From assembly GCA_012511925.1 (NCBI GenBank), contig JAAZFD010000025.1, positions 1 to 8,838 of the forward strand: a stretch of 8,838 nucleotides of DNA. The letters run 5' to 3'. The position numbers were made by a program, and so were the translations under genes. This document shows positions 79 to 8,838 of the stretch, piece by piece (position 1 is the first letter of the stretch; the number at the start of each line of letters is the position of its first letter). Below the pieces are notes generated by a model that saw only the letters and a list, made by a program, of their open reading frames with translations, had not been told where the DNA came from and searched no databases. This DNA comes from Clostridiales bacterium. GTDB lineage: Bacteria; Bacillota; Clostridia; Christensenellales; CAG-138.

Positions 79-2145
79 TTATAAATCTATTTTATCTCTT
101 TTGTCAAGTAATATTCTAACGTCGGCTACCACTGCACCGTGTTCATAAGCAAATACAGGGTTTATATCCGCTTCCGAAATACTTTCGTACATGAATGGCA
201 GCTTTGAAAGTTTTACAAGAATATCGCAAAGCGCATCTATATCTGCTTTATTGCCACCGCGCGCTCCCTGTAAAATCTCATAGCTTTTTGTTGATTTTAT
301 CATGTTAAGTGCGGCTTGGTGTGTTAAGGGTGCTATTCCTAATGCAATGTCCTTGAAAACCTCGGTATAGATTCCGCCCATTCCGAACATCACTACGGGT
401 CCGAATTGCGCATCACGAGTTAATCCCATCATCACCTCATAGCCCTTCTTGAGCATGGGATAGACGATAACGCCCAAGAATCCATAAAGCGTTTCTAATT
501 TTTTGAACGCCTCTATACATTCGAAGTCGTTTTTGATGTTAAGAATTACTCCGCCAACATCTGATTTATGAAGTATAGCAGGCGATACTACTTTCATGCA
601 AACAGGATACTCTATCTCGTTACACGCTTTTATAGCATCGTTGCTGTTGCTTGCGAATAGATGCTTTGGAATGCTTATGTCAACGCTGTCTAACAAGCGC
701 ATTGCTTGAGTTTCGAGTAGGCTTTTGCTGTCGCAACTGCACCCAAGCTCAAGCGACTCTATATCAGGGAAAAGGTCAATTTCCGTATTACTTGCCTTGT
801 ACTCATTATATTCAACGAGCTTTGATAGCGCGTTTGCTGCTCGTTCACCAGATGGGAACAGAACAACACCGCTGTTTGACAGCACTTTTTTAGCTTCTTC
901 TATATCGCTACCAATTTCAAATAAAGCGCATATGCACTTGTTGCTTTGCTTTGCAACCTTTGTTAATTCTTCTGCCACGGGCAAAGCCTGCAAGTGTGGA
1001 GTGCCAACATACATTACGATTGCTGCATCATACTCTTCCAAACAGGTGCTAAGTGCCTTTGCGTAGCCCATAGGCGTTGCACCTACTGTTAAATCGATTG
1101 GATTTGCAAGCCCTGCAAACGGGGGCAGGAACTCTTGTAGCTTGGATTTTACGGAATCCGACGGCGCACAAACTGTTAGCCCTGCATTCTCGCACATATC
1201 GGCAGTCATAACACCCGGGCCGCCCGAATTAGTGATGATTGCTACTTTCTTTCCGAAAATGTCTTTCTTAGCGGCAAAGATTTTCGCATAGTCGAACATA
1301 TCATCAGTTGTTATCGCACGAATACCACCGCAAACGGATATTGCCTTGTCGTAAACCATATCAGCACCAGCCATAGAGCCAGTATGCGACATTGCGGCGC
1401 GCTGTCCGCTTGATGTTCTGCCCGATTTAATAATGATTACAGGCTTAACAGCGGTTGCTTTTTGCAACACTTCCATGAATCGCCTGCCGTCTTTTATGTT
1501 TTCAACGTATAGCGTTATAACATCGATACTATCGTCATCTATAAGGTATTCTAAAAGCGAGGTTTCGTTTAGGTCTGCGCCATTTCCATAGCTTGCGAAC
1601 TTGCATATTCCTAAGCCGTTTTCGGTTGAAAGGTGCATTATTAAGCCGCCTACCGCTCCGCTTTGCGAAACGAGCGAAATTCTACCCTTGGCAGGTTGCG
1701 CTTCAATGGTTGCTAACAAAGAGTTTTCTGTGTTTGCTATGCCTGCGCAATTTGGACCTATGAAACGTATTGAATGCTTTTGTGCAATGCCAATAATTTC
1801 AGCTTCTAGTTCGTTATTGCCAGCTTCCGAAAAGCCAGAGCTGATAACTACAGCACCACGAACTCCAACCGCTCCACAATCCTCTAACACTTGAGGAACA
1901 GTAGCCGCAGGGCTTGAAATAAGCGCCAAATCAACTTTTTTATCGGCTAATTCCAGTATGCTTTTGTAGCCCTTTGAGTCTCCATGACCTATGCCTTTGG
2001 GGTTGATAATATAAATCTTTTTTGTATCGAAGCCGCCTTCAGTTAGGCGTTCCAATAATGCTCTGCCTAATTTTCCTTCCGAAACAGAGCCAAACAATGC
2101 AATAGAAGAGCAATAGAAAATTGAATCTATACGCAAATCACGCAT
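79..2145 (-). CDS. ADP-forming acyl-CoA synthetase (acetate--CoA ligase type), fused alpha and beta parts
   Basis: Predicted cytoplasmic enzyme of the NDP-forming acyl-CoA synthetase family, which converts acyl-CoA, ADP and phosphate to the free acid, CoA and ATP by way of phosphohistidine. The 688-residue chain has the usual length and order for an alpha-beta fusion: a CoA-binding Rossmann domain (about 13-105, SIALFGS), succinyl-CoA-ligase-like domains (about 150-445) and a C-terminal ATP-grasp domain (about 475-688). The SHTGSMAG motif holds the expected phosphorylated His254. LHKSDVGG holds the second conserved His526 of the beta part. FGPVVMFGMGG (581-591) and EADINPV (658-664) are typical ATP-grasp and metal-site segments. 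The ATG has GGAGGT (2151-2156) five bases upstream and lies inside the end of iorB (8-base overlap), so translation is probably coupled. Next to iorB, the likely substrate is an aryl- or branched acyl-CoA rather than acetyl-CoA alone; that is inference. No frameshift or missing motif is seen. Confidence 0.93.
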   Translation of the reverse strand: MRDLRIDSIFYCSSIALFGSVSEGKLGRALLERLTEGGFDTKKIYIINPKGIGHGDSKGYKSILELADKKVDLALISSPAATVPQVLEDCGAVGVRGAVVISSGFSEAGNNELEAEIIGIAQKHSIRFIGPNCAGIANTENSLLATIEAQPAKGRISLVSQSGAVGGLIMHLSTENGLGICKFASYGNGADLNETSLLEYLIDDDSIDVITLYVENIKDGRRFMEVLQKATAVKPVIIIKSGRTSSGQRAAMSHTGSMAGADMVYDKAISVCGGIRAITTDDMFDYAKIFAAKKDIFGKKVAIITNSGGPGVMTADMCENAGLTVCAPSDSVKSKLQEFLPPFAGLANPIDLTVGATPMGYAKALSTCLEEYDAAIVMYVGTPHLQALPVAEELTKVAKQSNKCICALFEIGSDIEEAKKVLSNSGVVLFPSGERAANALSKLVEYNEYKASNTEIDLFPDIESLELGCSCDSKSLLETQAMRLLDSVDISIPKHLFASNSNDAIKACNEIEYPVCMKVVSPAILHKSDVGGVILNIKNDFECIEAFKKLETLYGFLGVIVYPMLKKGYEVMMGLTRDAQFGPVVMFGMGGIYTEVFKDIALGIAPLTHQAALNMIKSTKSYEILQGARGGNKADIDALCDILVKLSKLPFMYESISEADINPVFAYEHGAVVADVRILLDKRDKIDL

Positions 2146-2728
2146 TTTTAACCTCCGAATTGAGTCCTATTTCAAGCGATTTAATGTTTAACTCTGAACC
2201 CTTTGAGAAGCGTTGAAGCATGGCAGTCTTTATATCTTGAGCTGTAAACATTTTCCCAACTGCGGTATGCGCAATACAAGCCCCTAATAGTACTATGTTT
2301 TGGGCAATATCTTCTGAATAATCCTCGGGGTTTAACACTTTGGGGTTTACTCCCTCTACCCTTGCAACAGAAATAACTGTGCTTACCTCGGGGTAGCTTG
2401 CACGCTTTAGCATAACATCGGTAGGCAACCATTTGTGTGCCCAAACCAAAATATCTCCGCCCTTTTTTATGTATTTTATAGCCTTTAAGGATTCCTGTAG
2501 CTCCATTGAGATTACGGCATCGGCGGTTTTTTCTGCGATTTCGGGTCCTGCTCCGCCCTGCCCTATACGCAACTGTGCCTTAACAAAGCCTCCTCTCTGT
2601 GCCATGCCCTTTGTGGGATAAAAGTTACACTCTAAGCCCTTGTTTTGAGCGGCAACGGCTAAAATCTCTGCAATCGTTAAAACGCCTTGACCGCCTATTC
2701 CTACAATATATAAATCTAACTTCTTCAT
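2138..2728 (-). CDS. iorB: Indolepyruvate/2-oxoacid:ferredoxin oxidoreductase beta subunit (gamma-domain type)
   Basis: 196 residues, the normal size for IorB, forming one pyruvate-ferredoxin-oxidoreductase gamma-type domain. The N-terminal glycine-rich motif VGIGGQGV (9-16) and the signature GMAQRGG (41-47), followed by a basic, hydrophobic strand (FVKAQLRIG), are diagnostic of this family. Together with IorA, which carries thiamine diphosphate and iron-sulphur clusters, the enzyme oxidises aryl pyruvates from aromatic amino acids to aryl-acetyl-CoA and reduces ferredoxin. The start ATG follows GGAGG (2733-2737). The stop TGA (2138-2140) lies within the start of the acyl-CoA synthetase gene, which would convert the acyl-CoA product to acid plus ATP. 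The catalytic IorA subunit is not next to it: the upstream neighbour is a carboxypeptidase and the downstream partial gene does not look like IorA. The true 2-oxo acid is not readable from sequence, and a related 2-oxoacid oxidoreductase gamma subunit is the main alternative. Confidence 0.87.
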   Translation of the reverse strand: MKKLDLYIVGIGGQGVLTIAEILAVAAQNKGLECNFYPTKGMAQRGGFVKAQLRIGQGGAGPEIAEKTADAVISMELQESLKAIKYIKKGGDILVWAHKWLPTDVMLKRASYPEVSTVISVARVEGVNPKVLNPEDYSEDIAQNIVLLGACIAHTAVGKMFTAQDIKTAMLQRFSKGSELNIKSLEIGLNSEVKNA

Positions 2729-2756
2729 GCTTCCTCCAATTATTTATTACACATAC

Positions 2757-2785
2757 ACTATAACCAATTTTGACGAATATAGCAA
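2757..2785 (-). promoter_or_regulatory. Possible sigma-A promoter for iorB and the acyl-CoA synthetase
   Basis: On the minus strand TTGCTA (2780-2785, 4 of 6 consensus) is separated by 17 bases from TATAGT (2757-2762, 5 of 6). It lies in the 76-base gap between the carboxypeptidase stop and the iorB start, giving an untranslated leader of about 20 bases that includes the GGAGG site. No convincing terminator hairpin is seen in the gap, so read-through from the carboxypeptidase gene is also possible. Confidence 0.42.
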
Positions 2786-2804
2786 TGTTTTGCAGGATAA
2801 TATA

Positions 2805-4214
2805 TTACATTCTCCTACGAACGCGATACTTGTTAGGGCGACTGTACTTAGCTCTCCTCGGCTTTCTTCTTGATAATTGAATAACAACTATTACGATTAC
2901 AATTCCTATACTTGCGGTTAGTAACCAAAACAGCCATGAGTAATAGGGGGTTTCTGGCGGCTCTACCGCTTCTACCTCTTGCCCTGCGCTTGTGCTTTCG
3001 TCCGATTTTTGAATCTTTTCAGAGGTTGTTAATGCGGCAGTGAAAATCACTTCATCGTTATATAGGTATTGCAGGCTTCCAACCGCTTCACCCGCATCCA
3101 CAGGTGCTTTTAACTCATTTTCACTTTCCGAATTGCTTAGTACAATCTTCAAGCCGAGCTTTGAAGCATTTTCTCGAATATCTTGAACATCGCTCTTTGG
3201 AATGCAAGCAAAGCTATTTTCTAAATCTATGTTAAGGGTAGTTTGCTTTATTAGAGAATCGGACACATTGCACGTAACTGTATTCGATAACCCTAAATCC
3301 GCAATATTTACAAGCTCAAAATTATTGAACCCAAAGTCAAATAGGCTTTTGGCTGCAACATATCTGTTTTCTCCGATTGTGGAATTATCGTCCATATCTC
3401 CAAACAATACTGCGATAAGCTCCATATCTCCTTTTTTAGCGGAGGTTACAATACATTTGCCAGCAAACATCGTATCACCAGTTTTTATGCCTGTTGCGTA
3501 TTCGTAAAGGAACGACTTTTTGTCGTCTACCTTTTTATGAATGAATCTGTTCGTGTTTTCAAGGATAAAGCCTTCAGAATGCCTGTTTGTTGAAGGTATG
3601 GTATGGACTTGAGTTGAAACAACCTGTCTAAATGTAGGGTTTTTCATAGCATAAGCAGAAGCAAGCGCAAGGTCATAAGCTGTTGTAAAATGCTCGGTAT
3701 TATCTAAGCCGTTGGGGTTTTTGAATTGAGTATCCTTCATGCCTAATGTAGCGCAATACTCGTTCATAATAACTGCAAAATCAGCAACCGAGCCAGAAAT
3801 ATGCTCGGCTATGGCACGTGCGGCATCGTTTCCCGAAACAAGCATCATTCCATATAATAAATCTTTTAGCTTCAACCTTTCACCAGGCTTTAAGCCCATT
3901 GATGAGCCTTTTGTCTCTACTCTATCGCCGATTGTAACCTCGGCTTCCAAATCGCCCTTTTCTATTGCGATTATTGCGGTAAGAACCTTTGTTGTGCTTG
4001 CAGGATACGCCTTTTCGTAGCCTCTTTTTTCGTATAAAACCTTGCCCGATTTTGCTTCATAAAGAAGCACATACTTAGAGCTGAAAGAAGCAAATTCAGC
4101 AGGGACTACAACTCCGTCAGTGCCGGTAGCCCTGGCACTACCAAAAAAACCTATGCAGTTTACGCATACAAATATCAGCGCAAACAGAAATATCGCAAGT
4201 CTAAAATTCTTCAA
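2805..4214 (-). CDS. dacF: D-alanyl-D-alanine carboxypeptidase (PBP5/DacF-like), membrane anchored
   Basis: A serine-type penicillin-binding protein that removes the terminal D-Ala from peptidoglycan pentapeptides, acting outside the membrane. All three active-site motifs are present (numbering from the start chosen here): STTK with Ser73 and Lys76, SGN at 127-129, and KTG at 244-246. A PBP5 C-terminal domain follows at about 297-395. The protein has a Sec signal peptide (residues 1-29, Lys/Arg then a hydrophobic core, cleavage probably after SARA). A single C-terminal transmembrane helix (about 427-447) is followed by a strongly basic tail of about 20 residues (RRKPRRAK, RRRM). The frame could open at a TTG at 4241, but I choose the TTG at 4214. 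It has AAGGAAGGG nine bases upstream, gives a textbook signal peptide, and lies about 36 bases after the predicted transcript start, whereas 4241 would lie only about nine. Length (469) is normal for clostridial DacF. The exact paralogue name (dacF versus dacA/dacB) is less certain than the family. Confidence 0.92.
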   Translation of the reverse strand: MKNFRLAIFLFALIFVCVNCIGFFGSARATGTDGVVVPAEFASFSSKYVLLYEAKSGKVLYEKRGYEKAYPASTTKVLTAIIAIEKGDLEAEVTIGDRVETKGSSMGLKPGERLKLKDLLYGMMLVSGNDAARAIAEHISGSVADFAVIMNEYCATLGMKDTQFKNPNGLDNTEHFTTAYDLALASAYAMKNPTFRQVVSTQVHTIPSTNRHSEGFILENTNRFIHKKVDDKKSFLYEYATGIKTGDTMFAGKCIVTSAKKGDMELIAVLFGDMDDNSTIGENRYVAAKSLFDFGFNNFELVNIADLGLSNTVTCNVSDSLIKQTTLNIDLENSFACIPKSDVQDIRENASKLGLKIVLSNSESENELKAPVDAGEAVGSLQYLYNDEVIFTAALTTSEKIQKSDESTSAGQEVEAVEPPETPYYSWLFWLLTASIGIVIVIVVIQLSRRKPRRAKYSRPNKYRVRRRM

Positions 4215-4223
4215 AATTTTTAA

Positions 4224-4232
4224 CCCTTCCTT
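4224..4232 (-). promoter_or_regulatory. Ribosome binding site that sets the dacF start
   Basis: AAGGAAGGG on the minus strand sits nine bases before the TTG at 4212-4214. It falls inside the longer reading frame that would start at 4241, which argues that those first nine codons are untranslated leader. The same nine bases precede the divergent pilin-type gene. Confidence 0.65.
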
Positions 4233-4256
4233 GGAATCCAAAATAAGTATAAGGCT

Positions 4257-4719: not shown

Positions 4720-4730
4720 AAGGAAGGGAG
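4720..4730 (+). promoter_or_regulatory. Ribosome binding site of the repeat protein
   Basis: AAGGAAGGGAG ends seven bases before the ATG at 4738. In-frame stop codons at 4681, 4684, 4690, 4693, 4699 and 4708, with no other start codon after the last one, make this ATG the only possible start. Confidence 0.85.
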
Positions 4731-4737
4731 AGTTAGT

Positions 4738-4857
4738 ATGAAAAGAAATTACTCATACAAACGGGCTTTTACAATCGTAGAGTTAATTATTGTAATTGCG
4801 GTAATAGGTGTATTGGCGGCAATACTCATTCCCGCATTCACAAATATGATTGCAAAA
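4738..4857 (+). other. Prepilin-type leader and hydrophobic helix
   Basis: Residues 2-9 include Lys2, Arg3, Lys8 and Arg9, followed by Ala10 and then FTIVEL, with Phe11 at +1 and Glu15 at +5. The following residues to about 34 are almost all Ile, Val, Leu, Ala or Gly and end in LIPAF, as in pilins. A prepilin peptidase would cut between codons 4765-4767 and 4768-4770. The -1 residue is Ala rather than the usual Gly. Confidence 0.85.
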
Positions 4858-7800
4858 GCCAACGCAAAGGCAGCATTATCAGATGCTCGCAGCACGCTCA
4901 CCTCATATTTAGCCGAAAACTTGGCTATTATTGACGGTCAGATTGCAACAAGTATAGTAATCTTTATTCGAAAGGCTGGAGTATACTATATTTTCGGCTA
5001 TCAAAACAAAGGACCCGATATGGGTAAGCTGATGCAATCGGGAGGAAATCCATATCATTATGATGACCTCTCAGAACTCATCAACGACTACAACTGTACA
5101 GATGAAGACTTTATTGGTACTCCTGCAGAGGATCAATATGCCGTATATCTTAGAACCGAGCCATCTGGTTCAGGCGGCATGAAGTCGAAAACAAAAGATG
5201 GCGATATGGACGAAATAAACGACACATACGTAAATCTTACCGACAAGATGGGAGACGATTTACCGAATACATCAGAAGTGTTCGACGGTTTCCTAATCGG
5301 TATGATTTTTGATGCAGGCACTATTCCCCACGGTGGCGGTACGAACCCAGGAGAAAACCCCGGCGGTACGGAAACAGCTAAGGTAAAGATAACCTATGCA
5401 CCTGGTGGAGAAGGTGTAACAGGTATGCCCGAGCCTTTAGAGGTTGAGGTAGAAGCAAACAAGGAATTTCCGCTTCCTGTCGCACCGATAAGAACAGGTT
5501 ATAACTTTGATGGCTGGATGATTCCGGAAAGGGGTACATTTGGACCGACTCAGCTGGCAAAAGTGAGCAAACCCTGTACTATTACTGCCACTTGGGAAGC
5601 AAAAGAAGAATTTACATTAACATTTGACCCAGGTGAAGGCGGCACTTTTGTTCCTGCAAGCGGTTATTCATTTGTCGGCAACACGATTACGCTATACAAG
5701 GGCGAAGATATTGCTAATATCGTAATGAACTCAACGGCGACAAAAGCCAACCACGATTTCAAGGGCTGGTCGGATGACGGTGTGCGCTTCTTCTTAGACG
5801 ACTACTCGGGTCCCATTCAACTGAACGGCAACCTAACGCTTGTGGTTATTTGGGAGCAATCCAAGTACAGCATAACATATAGCCTTGATGACGGTGAGGG
5901 CGTAGGCACAAACGGCGGTAGCCATACAATGGGCTCAACCGTAAAGTTAACTAGCGATATTCCCACAAAGAGCGGCTATGTATTTTCGCGCTGGTATTGT
6001 GCTGAAAAGGATATGGAGTTCGGCGCTGGCGCAGATTATGTAATGCCTGGCAAAAATGTAACGCTTTTGGCGTTGTATATTCAAGAGTACACGATTACAT
6101 ACATAGCAGGCGGTGCAACAGGCACAGTGCCTACACAAGCGCCGGTAACACCAGGGACAGAGATTACAATTAAGTCGGCAGATGGTTTAACGGTGGATAA
6201 GAAAGTATTCGACGGTTGGAAATGTGCGGAAACCAACGAAACGAAATACCCCAACGATAAGGTTATTGTTAACCAAAACTTGAATTTCACAGCAATGTGG
6301 AAAGATGCTACTTACTATGTAACTTATGTTGACAATGACCATGGTAAAGCGCCTGTTGATGGCACTGCATACCAACAAGGCTTTCCATTTACTGTTAAGA
6401 ATATTACAGGCAACGTTGACGGCTATGAATTTATAGGCTGGCAAGCAAGCCATAACGGCACTGTATATCAGCCCAATGCAAATGTTGGAATGCCAAAGGA
6501 CGGTACAACGCTTACGGCTATTTGGAATAAGTTATCAAAGCTAACGCTCGTAATAGAGGGCTCAACCGAAAACGGTTTGACATTGGTTCAAGATGCAAGC
6601 AAAATCGTAGGCGGCAGCACATTCGTAAAAGAATACTTGAATGTTCCTGCTGGCAAAGACATTTACGACTACTTGTTCACAGACTCCAAGCTTTCATACG
6701 AAGCTGATTTGTACTACTTCAGAGGTTGGGTAAATAAGAATGACCCTGCTCAAACCTACAATGAAAATTATGTAGGTCCGATTGGTATGCCTACTAACGA
6801 TGCAACATTTGTAGTAGCTTGGGAGGGCAATCCGTTTAAGTTGACATTTGACCTAAACGGCGGTTCGGGTACGTTTAATTTGATTGAATTCTTCCCAGGC
6901 GATACGATTGCTATTCCTGCCACAGCTCCCACCATTGCAGGCGGTCAGTTGTTCATGGGATGGGAACGCTCCGATATGGTTGGCGGCGCTTTAATAGCTG
7001 CAGGCGGTAACATTATCAACGCTCCCGCAAACAATATCGAGCTTAAAGCTATGTGGGCGAACCCTGAATTCTATGTAGAGTACGACAAAAACGGCGGTAC
7101 AGCTGCCCCTGCTAATGCAACCGTAAACTGTGCAACTGCTGGTGAATATACCATACCCATGGCTCCGCCAATGAACAGAGCGGGATACACTTTTGGCGGT
7201 TGGGCGGCATCGCATAACGGGCAGACTTATCAGTCTGGTGGAAAAGTTCCCTATACACTAGATTTTGCAGGTTCAACAGTAACTTTAACAGCTCAATGGA
7301 CTGTTCAAACTCGAACCGTAACATATAATGCAAATGGTGGCACGGGTACATTAACAGACCCCAATAGTCCGTACAACTACAACTCTGTGGTTACTGTATT
7401 AAACAACACATTTACATTCAGCGGAAGCGAATTTATAAAATGGAACACTGCAGCCAACGGCACAGGTACTGATTATTTGGCAGGTGCGACATTCAGTATT
7501 ACAGCCAACACAACTCTCTACGCACAATGGGAGGCAAAAGCAGCACAAACCTACACCATTACCTTCACCCTCTACGATGCATTTAACGGTGAATCGGCTG
7601 GAACGAAGGATGTTGTAAAGGAGATGTCCCAAGGAGAGTCGATTACTATTAACAACGCAAACTTTACTACATACATACCCGGCTACAAACCCTATAGTAC
7701 ATCAAACTACTTTGCTTCCACGTACTCAAAGACGATAACAGCCGGTGCTCAAACAGCTATCAACGGCGGTTCGATTGATGTATATGCCTTTGTAGATGTA

Positions 7801-8838
7801 AGTGGCGCAGAGTACATCAAGCTAACCACATTAGCAGGGCTTAACAGGGTTGGCACTGATGCAACGCACTTGGGCAAGAACTACCAGATGCAGAAGAACA
7901 TCAATAATGCTGGTGCAAAGTTCACTCCGTTAGGTTGGGTTGGCGGTTCAAGCGGAAGCAGAATTGCGTTTACCGGCACATTTGATGGCAAATCGTTTGA
8001 GATACAAAACTTTACTGCTGACTGGGGAGCTAATGGACAACGATATGTTGGCTTGTTTGCACATAACAACGGTACTATTAAGAATGTTAAGCTTATTGCA
8101 ACTAACTCGATATTCGGTTTAACCTATGTTGGTGGCATAGCTGCCTATAACCAAGGCACGATTGATAATTGCTTGGTAAGAAACGATTCATACTCCATAG
8201 GTGCACAGGAGAACAACGGGCAACAGGGTGCAGGCTATGCAGGCGGTATTGCAGGGTATAGCACTTCAACAGGCAAAGTAACAAATTGTGTTAGCGAAAT
8301 AGCACAGGTATTTGCGTTCTGTTATGCTGGCGGTATAGTGGGCTATAACCAAGGCACAATTACAAGTTGTGAAGCTTATGGCGGTGTAAATGATAATTAC
8401 ACAGAAAACGCACCTTATTTGGAAATAACCCTCACTTATGCTGGCGGTATAGCTGGTGTAAACTACGGCACAATATCAAACAATAAAACAGTCGTTCAGG
8501 ATTGCTCGATATGTGGTTCAGGCATTGTTGGCGGTGTAACTGGCAGAAATTATAGCGGTGGTACGCTAAACAACAATACTGTATCGGTAACTAACAACCA
8601 AATGATTGTTTCTGGCGGTATGGTAGGCGGTATTGCCGGCATAAACCAAGGCACTATTACTGGCGGTAATGTTTACTTAAAGAGAACAAACGAACCTGGG
8701 GCAGGCAATTTAGGCACAGTGCTTTACAACGCTGTTTGCGCATTCGCTTCAACTGAATGGAATATCCCCGGTATAGGCAATTATACAGGTGGCTATGTTG
8801 GTGGCGAATCGGGCATGAAGGAAGGCACTGTCACACTA
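4738..8838 (+). CDS. Giant surface protein with type IV pilin-type leader, InlB B-repeats and GLUG repeats (3' end outside window)
   Basis: At least 1367 codons without a stop; the C-terminus is missing. Order of parts: residues 1-10 a short basic prepilin-type leader; 11-40 a pilin-type hydrophobic helix (FTIVELIIVIAVIG, Glu at +5); 41-197 a soluble segment I do not recognise, beginning with an amphipathic Ala-rich helix; 198-212 a Gly/Pro/Asn linker; 215-931 nine InlB B-type repeats; 932-1021 a degenerate unit; 1025-1100 the lead-in seen before GLUG arrays (FTGTFDGKSFEIQNF); and 1103-1367 GLUG-type repeats. InlB B and GLUG repeats are known from cell-surface adhesins, and the pilin leader from type IV pili and type II secretion pseudopilins. 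I infer an extracellular adhesin or fibre delivered by a pilus-like machine. There is no Sec-type cleavable signal and no sorting motif in the visible part. It stands alone under its own promoter, divergent from dacF, with no pilus assembly gene in the window. Domain calls are firm; function is inferred. Confidence 0.9.
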   Translation, partial: MKRNYSYKRAFTIVELIIVIAVIGVLAAILIPAFTNMIAKANAKAALSDARSTLTSYLAENLAIIDGQIATSIVIFIRKAGVYYIFGYQNKGPDMGKLMQSGGNPYHYDDLSELINDYNCTDEDFIGTPAEDQYAVYLRTEPSGSGGMKSKTKDGDMDEINDTYVNLTDKMGDDLPNTSEVFDGFLIGMIFDAGTIPHGGGTNPGENPGGTETAKVKITYAPGGEGVTGMPEPLEVEVEANKEFPLPVAPIRTGYNFDGWMIPERGTFGPTQLAKVSKPCTITATWEAKEEFTLTFDPGEGGTFVPASGYSFVGNTITLYKGEDIANIVMNSTATKANHDFKGWSDDGVRFFLDDYSGPIQLNGNLTLVVIWEQSKYSITYSLDDGEGVGTNGGSHTMGSTVKLTSDIPTKSGYVFSRWYCAEKDMEFGAGADYVMPGKNVTLLALYIQEYTITYIAGGATGTVPTQAPVTPGTEITIKSADGLTVDKKVFDGWKCAETNETKYPNDKVIVNQNLNFTAMWKDATYYVTYVDNDHGKAPVDGTAYQQGFPFTVKNITGNVDGYEFIGWQASHNGTVYQPNANVGMPKDGTTLTAIWNKLSKLTLVIEGSTENGLTLVQDASKIVGGSTFVKEYLNVPAGKDIYDYLFTDSKLSYEADLYYFRGWVNKNDPAQTYNENYVGPIGMPTNDATFVVAWEGNPFKLTFDLNGGSGTFNLIEFFPGDTIAIPATAPTIAGGQLFMGWERSDMVGGALIAAGGNIINAPANNIELKAMWANPEFYVEYDKNGGTAAPANATVNCATAGEYTIPMAPPMNRAGYTFGGWAASHNGQTYQSGGKVPYTLDFAGSTVTLTAQWTVQTRTVTYNANGGTGTLTDPNSPYNYNSVVTVLNNTFTFSGSEFIKWNTAANGTGTDYLAGATFSITANTTLYAQWEAKAAQTYTITFTLYDAFNGESAGTKDVVKEMSQGESITINNANFTTYIPGYKPYSTSNYFASTYSKTITAGAQTAINGGSIDVYAFVDVSGAEYIKLTTLAGLNRVGTDATHLGKNYQMQKNINNAGAKFTPLGWVGGSSGSRIAFTGTFDGKSFEIQNFTADWGANGQRYVGLFAHNNGTIKNVKLIATNSIFGLTYVGGIAAYNQGTIDNCLVRNDSYSIGAQENNGQQGAGYAGGIAGYSTSTGKVTNCVSEIAQVFAFCYAGGIVGYNQGTITSCEAYGGVNDNYTENAPYLEITLTYAGGIAGVNYGTISNNKTVVQDCSICGSGIVGGVTGRNYSGGTLNNNTVSVTNNQMIVSGGMVGGIAGINQGTITGGNVYLKRTNEPGAGNLGTVLYNAVCAFASTEWNIPGIGNYTGGYVGGESGMKEGTVTL
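5380..7530 (+). repeat. Array of nine InlB B-type (Listeria-Bacteroides) protein repeats
   Basis: Nine units follow the pattern: beta strand ending in [FY]xxxGG, a middle strand, GYxFxGW, a variable loop, then TLxAxW. Residue limits are about 215-286, 292-372, 376-447, 451-521, 526-596, 602-695, 700-773, 778-854 and 858-931. Most are 70-82 residues; unit 6 is longer at 94. Unit 3 ends in ALY instead of AxW, and units 3 and 9 have RW or KW in place of GW. Units 5 and 8 share the loop GWxASHNGxxYQ, suggesting a closer duplication history. Overall the units are strongly diverged, so the array is old rather than a recent tandem expansion. This repeat family forms a small ubiquitin-like beta fold used as stalk or adhesion modules. 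Confidence 0.88.
7531..7800 (+). repeat. Degenerate tenth InlB-like unit or spacer
   Basis: Residues 932-1021 start like an InlB unit (TYTITFTLYD, then a strand SITINNANF and PGYKPY) but lack both the GW and the terminal AxW tryptophans. It links the InlB array to the GLUG region. It may be a decayed repeat or a separate small domain. Confidence 0.5.
7810..8838 (+). repeat. GLUG-type repeat region (continues past the window)
   Basis: A lead-in (residues about 1025-1100, with a FDG turn) precedes at least eight units built on YxGGIAGxNxGTI. They start near residues 1103 (YVGLFAHNNGTI), 1130 (YVGGIAAYNQGTI), 1167, 1196, 1234, 1263, 1296 and 1353. Three consecutive units have Cys at the same place after the motif (residues 1144-1145, 1184 and 1211 region, as in DNC, TNC and TSC). 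At DNA level a 17-base exact repeat (8322-8338 and 8436-8452) and the motif AACCAAGGCAC (near 8149, 8347 and 8644) recur. Such repeats are expected to stack as a beta-helix-like rod; they occur in bacterial surface proteins, including near IgA-protease-type proteins, but no protease domain is visible here. Confidence 0.8.

Follow-up and report, generated by a model that had tools for sequence, protein, structure and literature searches.

What does a prepilin-type leader do on a protein of more than a thousand residues whose outer part is built of adhesin-type repeats? The question is raised by an open reading frame (ORF) in the DNA of a Clostridiales bacterium. The window, that is, the whole stretch of 8838 bases analysed here, is a complete contig of a draft genome (G000; 1.66 Mb in 360 contigs, 86.6% complete). 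On its plus strand, an ORF at 4738-8838 runs uninterrupted for 1367 codons and is open at its 3' end, which is the end of the contig. As judged from its sequence, the encoded protein has the architecture of a modular type IV prepilin, and display of this protein and its relatives in a type IV filament is the reading that is favoured below with moderate confidence. The features of the locus are as follows.

4720-4731, plus strand: likely ribosome-binding site aaggaagggaga (putative, by sequence inspection)
4738-8838, plus strand: predicted modular prepilin of 1367 residues, 3' end lost at the contig end (ORF reading and family scans)
4738-4767, plus strand: class III leader peptide MKRNYSYKRA with a predicted cut after A10 (N_methyl match; position of the cut deduced)
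4768-4926, plus strand: pilin-type helix, residues 11-63, with E+5 (E15) and P+22 (P32) (AlphaFold2 helix at 13-63; PDB sequence search)
4738-5337, plus strand: shared head unit including the leader, residues 1-200 (paralogue alignments; AlphaFold2)
5323-5382, plus strand: linker rich in Gly, Pro and Asn between head and repeats (sequence)
5383-7557, plus strand: InlB B-repeat array (Flg_new), 6 units singly scored and 8 at a lax limit (profile searches)
7558-7902, plus strand: spacer segment of the LYDAFNG... type, with similar text in the sibling L016 (by eye)
7903-8838, plus strand: GLUG-type repeats lost at the contig end, family score above the cut-off (segment scan)

The N-terminus of the window protein reads MKRNYSYKRA followed, at the predicted cut, by FTIVELIIVIAVIGVLAAILIPAF. 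At this site (R9-A10/F11) the residue at -1 is A, not G, and E and P stand at +5 and +22. N_methyl matches residues 7-30 with 23.8 bits (cut-off 21.2), and NCBIfam IV_pilin_GFxxxE (TIGR02532) matches with 21.7 (cut-off 16.3). InlB B-repeats begin at about residue 216 and are followed by GLUG motifs. Flg_new scores 149 bits on the whole protein in 4 stretches (E 1e-3), and its units are found at 6 places of the array in a genome profile search and in 8 stretches at a lax E of 5. GLUG is absent from the whole-protein scan at E 1e-3; the segment 7903-8838 scanned alone gives 25 bits (cut-off 20.5), with 4 stretches at the lax limit. The combination of leader, helix, InlB B-repeats and GLUG repeats in a single uninterrupted frame, as proposed by the sequence-only reading, is thus borne out in every part checked. 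Judging by its families, Flg_new and GLUG, the extra module is not specific to pilus biology.

Further proteins with the same leader, which that reading had suggested looking for, are indeed encoded in the genome. N_methyl is found on 21 ORFs of G000, 16 of which have a common head. Instead of a lone giant fibre capping a pilus, as had been imagined, the window protein is one of about twenty leader proteins, and the modules behind the common head are exchangeable. InlB repeats follow the head in the window protein, L015 (1879 residues, with a stop codon) and L017 (1007 residues); GLUG follows it in L009 and L016, and Big_2 in the second gene of L020, in L023 (above the cut-off) and in the first gene of L021 (just below it). 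Sibling ORFs with both start and stop reach 1879 residues. The head is also found without a recognisable module in L013 (149 residues). At L013:2-1950, two short head-only pilins lie about 1.1 kb apart, the first truncated at the contig start; these proteins, encoded outside the pilus cluster, are candidate major pilins. The five N_methyl ORFs lacking the head are two in L010, L011:3153-3725, L012 and L024, and four of the five match the head model in the helix region only. At L021:2187-4593, pilin-headed genes of the Big_2 type form a tandem pair, the second truncated at the contig end.

The family extends to other genomes. Two were compared: G016, of the same genus (1.5 Mb, 94% complete, about 40 contigs), and G022, of the same family and a different genus. 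The head model finds 23 matches in G000, 27 in G016 and 19 in G022, leaderless pieces included; counted in the same way, of 101 family genomes searched, 10, belonging to 7 of 26 genera, have at least one match. In G016 it is combined with Big_2 in L167 and L168. Taken together, the leader-bearing ORFs of the retrieved stretches encode 11,649 (G000) and 11,692 (G016) residues, or about 2% of the DNA of either genome, a lower bound in that some run off their contigs. The head is matched by 39 entries of the protein database, which range up to 2213 residues: N_methyl accompanies Flg_new and/or GLUG in 26 of them (772-2213 residues), 12 list N_methyl without these repeats, and one has the repeats without N_methyl. 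P0001 (1844 residues) has a head 75% identical to that of the window protein and carries both InlB and GLUG, and P0002 and P0005 look like siblings from the same species as the window. Among 38 loci examined, a subset of 80 loci of which the other 42 are mostly not from Clostridia, 14 encode proteins that extend for 400 residues or more from the leader; G016 contributes 3 of the 14. The layout of leader plus repeats, whose spread in Clostridia had been raised as a question, is found outside the source genome in other assemblies and in G016. An in-frame stop or a frame break lies within the head region at L018:114-4430, L162:4237-7044 and L163:3889-5900; uninterrupted relatives exist in the protein database, and the interruptions may reflect decay, variation or errors of sequencing.

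The segment between helix and repeats had been suggested as a possible pilin-like head. In an alignment of the 16 N_methyl ORFs and one further cluster pilin of G000, a shared stretch of some 190 residues follows the leader, with I18, I31, P32, A46 and A50 (window numbering) invariant. The AlphaFold2 model of the window head has a mean predicted local distance difference test score (pLDDT) of 82.1 and a predicted template modelling score (pTM) of 0.77, with a helix at 13-63. In a PDB sequence search, pilins are matched across the helix part only. The shared head stands; its pilin fold is weakly supported.

The helix itself is under strong constraint. In 54 sequences, chosen by a motif that demands E5, identity and codon use were compared: mature residues 1-24 of the G000 paralogues have a mean identity of 0.81, against 0.45 for residues 25-52, and in the G000 helix the same codon is used at 41% of agreeing amino acids, where codon use alone predicts 36%. 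The helix is thus conserved as protein while its codon choice is near chance, which points to an old helix selected on its sequence and not to recent copying. For membrane anchoring alone, hydrophobicity would suffice. The constraint speaks for a role in packing, without being proof of it. The window helix is identical to that of the short pilin L013 at 41 of 52 positions and to those of three minor pilins at 5 to 14 of 52. E5 is kept in 56 of 59 leader-bearing head matches of G000, G016 and G022, counted without the E5 filter, and P+22 in 21/21, 21/22 and 10/16 of those in the three genomes. E5 is missing only in L011 and L174, both in pilus clusters, and in L199, which adjoins another leader-bearing gene. 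Glu5 is thought to serve docking of subunits in filaments (PMC10191384), and two papers place a pilin without Glu5 at the filament tip (PMC10191384, PMC9934059).

The pilus machine, the absence of which had been named as a point against a pilus role, is encoded. In G000, the L011 cluster contains a prepilin peptidase (A24_N_bact, Peptidase_A24), PilC with two T2SSF domains, the MshEN start of PilB and minor pilins; PilB is partial because the cluster ends at the contig end. A second ATPase of the T2SSE family (156 bits), PilT-like by eye, lies on L014, a contig shared with a pilin-headed protein truncated after the head. One peptidase and one PilC are found in the profile search of this draft. 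The G016 cluster L174 is whole, with PilB (T2SSE, 447 bits), PilC, peptidase and several pilins, together with a PilM-like-looking protein without a Pfam family, and the G022 cluster has both a whole PilB and PilC. Among the genomes of the family, the peptidase is found in 7 of 10 with heads and in 11 of 91 others (Fisher 1.6e-4, the genomes not being independent). The E5-less cluster pilin of G016 (L174:6994-7593) matches the head model with 4.3e-8 over positions 4-92 when the row of its orthologue (L011:5618-6208) is omitted, and with 3.5e-24 when the model contains it. In G022, a short head-only pilin with a truncated start (L198:2-313; E 7.6e-22) opens the pilus cluster. These two matches tie the giant proteins to the machine. 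The scores are partly derived from the helix, and other cluster pilins also match at about 1e-6.

If head proteins are displayed in a type IV filament, as seems fairly probable, the prepilin would be inserted by Sec and its first 10 residues removed by the one prepilin peptidase found. The helix would store the processed protein in the membrane until it is taken up into a filament by way of helix and head, together with the short head-only pilin L013 (149 residues), and the operon pilins would form the filament tip. The InlB and GLUG repeats of the window protein, forming an arm more than 1,100 residues long, would then stand beyond the cell wall, and exchange of arms on one head could give many binding specificities shown by one machine. 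From their sequences, the arms are predicted to be mostly adhesive, with one nutrient-binding sibling. The window protein would presumably be cleaved, assembled either into a filament tip or along the length of a short filament, exposed at the surface and active in adhesion.

The C-termini of the relatives show no anchor. Neither a C-terminal membrane helix nor LPXTG is found by simple sequence tests in any of the 30 leader-bearing ORFs of G000 and G016 that end in a stop codon, 3 of which (L018, L162, L163) are no more than fragments ended by a premature stop or frame break, and no C-terminal anchor is found in 39 database homologues, P0001 among them, some possibly incomplete. A wall anchor on the repeat protein, envisaged earlier as the alternative, therefore has no example among siblings with a stop, and the C-terminus of the window protein itself lies beyond the contig end. 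The G000 genome contains a single sortase match, on C297 (L045), with 31.5 bits.

Similar repeats are also exported by another route. In G000, 17 InlB-type ORFs without the leader were scanned for dockerin, signal-peptide-like starts being judged by eye. All eight proteins with a signal peptide and similar repeats (L029, L032, L034-L037, L041, L044) carry Dockerin_1, combined with InlB, Big_2, GLUG, RCC1 or subtilase modules; the dockerin of L036 is internal, not C-terminal, and L044 and L041 are below the Flg_new cut-off, L035 just below it. Among the nine ORFs without a visible start, three (L030, L039, L043) have a dockerin and six (L028, L031, L033, L038, L040, L042) have none, some of the latter with GLUG-type ends like those of pilin-headed proteins. 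On the other hand, dockerin is found in none of 21 pilin-leader proteins scanned, 20 of them with a stop codon. This contrast was noticed before it was counted, and the Fisher test, made on 0/19 with paralogues treated as independent, is to be read loosely. Dockerins on signal-peptide proteins and none on pilin-leader proteins nevertheless suggest two parallel display routes for similar repeats. The earlier view was that InlB and GLUG proteins normally use Sec signals with wall anchors; in G000, proteins with these repeats and an ordinary signal peptide carry dockerins instead. Cohesin matches number 4 in G000 and 2 in G016; dockerins and cohesins in G000 would make up a dockerin-cohesin surface system.

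Among the other explanations, the main rival is that the prepilin helix, cut or uncut, is a retained membrane anchor from which the arm reaches through the wall without entry into a filament. It is rather unlikely but made a serious contender by a solute-binding fusion, the best argument that some head proteins stay in the membrane. At L020:3838-5163 of G000, leader and head are followed by Peripla_BP_2 (111 bits) in a protein of 441 residues; a FecCD permease gene begins 87 bases further on, followed by an ATP-binding cassette (ABC) ATPase gene (L020:3838-7073). The corresponding fusion in G016 (L164, Peripla_BP_2 123 bits) likewise precedes a FecCD-like permease, recognised by eye, and an ABC ATPase. 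In both genomes this pilin-headed fusion is the only Peripla_BP_2 found, and the genome search finds none in G022. A binding protein of this kind has to contact its permease where the latter sits, at the membrane, and the place of the fusion directly before importer genes speaks for retention there. So does a further point. In G016 (L177:6343-8164), three lipoprotein-like ORFs, with a lipobox by eye, have the head region without the pilin helix, matching the head model at about positions 37-110 with E 6e-9 to 3e-5 (1e-7 to 1e-4 in a second search), so that the head can serve non-pilus proteins. Against a retained anchor, however, stand the near-invariant E5 (56/59), a residue thought to dock filament subunits (PMC10191384), the exact helix sequence kept with codon choice near expectation, and the ordinary signal-peptide and dockerin routes that are available for similar repeats. 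The pair of N_methyl and Peripla_BP_2 is listed in 1 of 90 database matches, which is the query itself, and the G016 copy is absent from the 90, so that this count does not gauge the spread of the fusion.

Under a second, improbable explanation, the proteins with pilin heads would not be lasting components of a filament; a short pseudopilus of the type II secretion system (T2SS) or competence type would push or release them, as its cargo or as part of its own structure. The presence of both heads and machine and the lack of C-terminal anchors in the siblings would fit this, as would weak matches to NCBIfam GspG and ComGC. These scores are nevertheless far under the equivalog cut-offs (GspG 25.8 of 88.85 bits, ComGC 20.4 of 75 bits). 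Pseudopilus systems usually lack PilT, and the second T2SSE ATPase, on L014, looks PilT-like by eye. Finally, a wrong joining of leader and repeats in assembly or binning, suggested by a 360-contig genome in which the window is a whole contig, is refuted by the same layout in other assemblies, in G016 and in G000 siblings with start and stop.

Several known systems resemble these proteins. The layout matches that of modular type IV pilins, which were defined in 2021: over 1,200 proteins fall into 264 architectures, and the extreme among the multi-domain ones has 860 residues (PMC8179133). They are an established class, where the earlier reading had seen a candidate for an under-described system. 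PilB and PilC of Streptococcus sanguinis likewise have a class III leader, a pilin helix, a small pilin part, a linker and a non-pilus module in a monoderm host (PMC8179133, PMC9934059). In contrast to the 860-residue extreme of the survey, ORFs with start and stop here reach 1879 residues; S. sanguinis has two modular pilins, against 16 ORFs on one head in G000, and its modules differ from the InlB, GLUG and solute-binding modules found here. The present family differs from known modular pilins by scale, by paralogues on one head, by the dockerin alternative and by the solute-binding member. PilY1/PilC of diderms resemble the window protein in a very large arm proposed for display at the pilus tip, while PilY1 is not a pilin (PMC8179133, PMC9934059) and the window protein is pilin-type; no beta-propeller family is listed for the window protein in the general family scan at E 1e-3. 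The InlB B-repeat (Flg_new) units are shared with Listeria InlB. This and other B-repeat proteins are Sec-exported, unlike the window protein with its prepilin leader in place of a Sec signal peptide and its repeats on a pilin-type head; its siblings also lack LPXTG. No matching description was found by title or abstract start in the open-licence literature, and Dataset S1 of PMC8179133 may list an InlB-type modular pilin.

The bindosome of Sulfolobus (Saccharolobus) solfataricus has sugar-binding proteins with prepilin leaders that need a type IV machine, and archaea, too, are predicted to encode proteins with this leader whose length is well above 1000 residues (PMC4371748, PMC4471445). Here as well, a prepilin leader is found on a substrate-binding protein (L020:3838-5163, L164) in a genome that encodes a type IV machine. 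The likeness concerns siblings and not the window protein, however, and the host is a bacterium, the binding domain stands behind a pilin-type head, Peripla_BP_2 lies beside FecCD and not in a sugar-binding system, and no second bas-like machine is seen. That the family forms a bacterial counterpart of the bindosome is a tentative and rather doubtful proposal: one machine would build a mixed complex of the short pilin and about sixteen to twenty pilin-headed proteins, with surface and nutrient capture on the same retractable structure, and such a complex would combine giant InlB, GLUG and Big_2 arms with the solute-binding component of a FecCD-type importer.

The minus strand of the window at 79-4241 carries genes for an acyl-CoA ligase, a POR/IOR-type 2-oxoacid oxidoreductase subunit and a D-Ala-D-Ala carboxypeptidase.

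If filament display is true, about 2% of the DNA of a small genome goes into one platform with an exchangeable pilin-headed display, used even for nutrient binding, and its arms are larger than the 860-residue extreme that the survey of modular pilins gives (PMC8179133). One pilus machine would then serve many functions in uncultured Clostridia, and this bacterium would couple adhesion with uptake in the way proposed for the archaeal bindosome.
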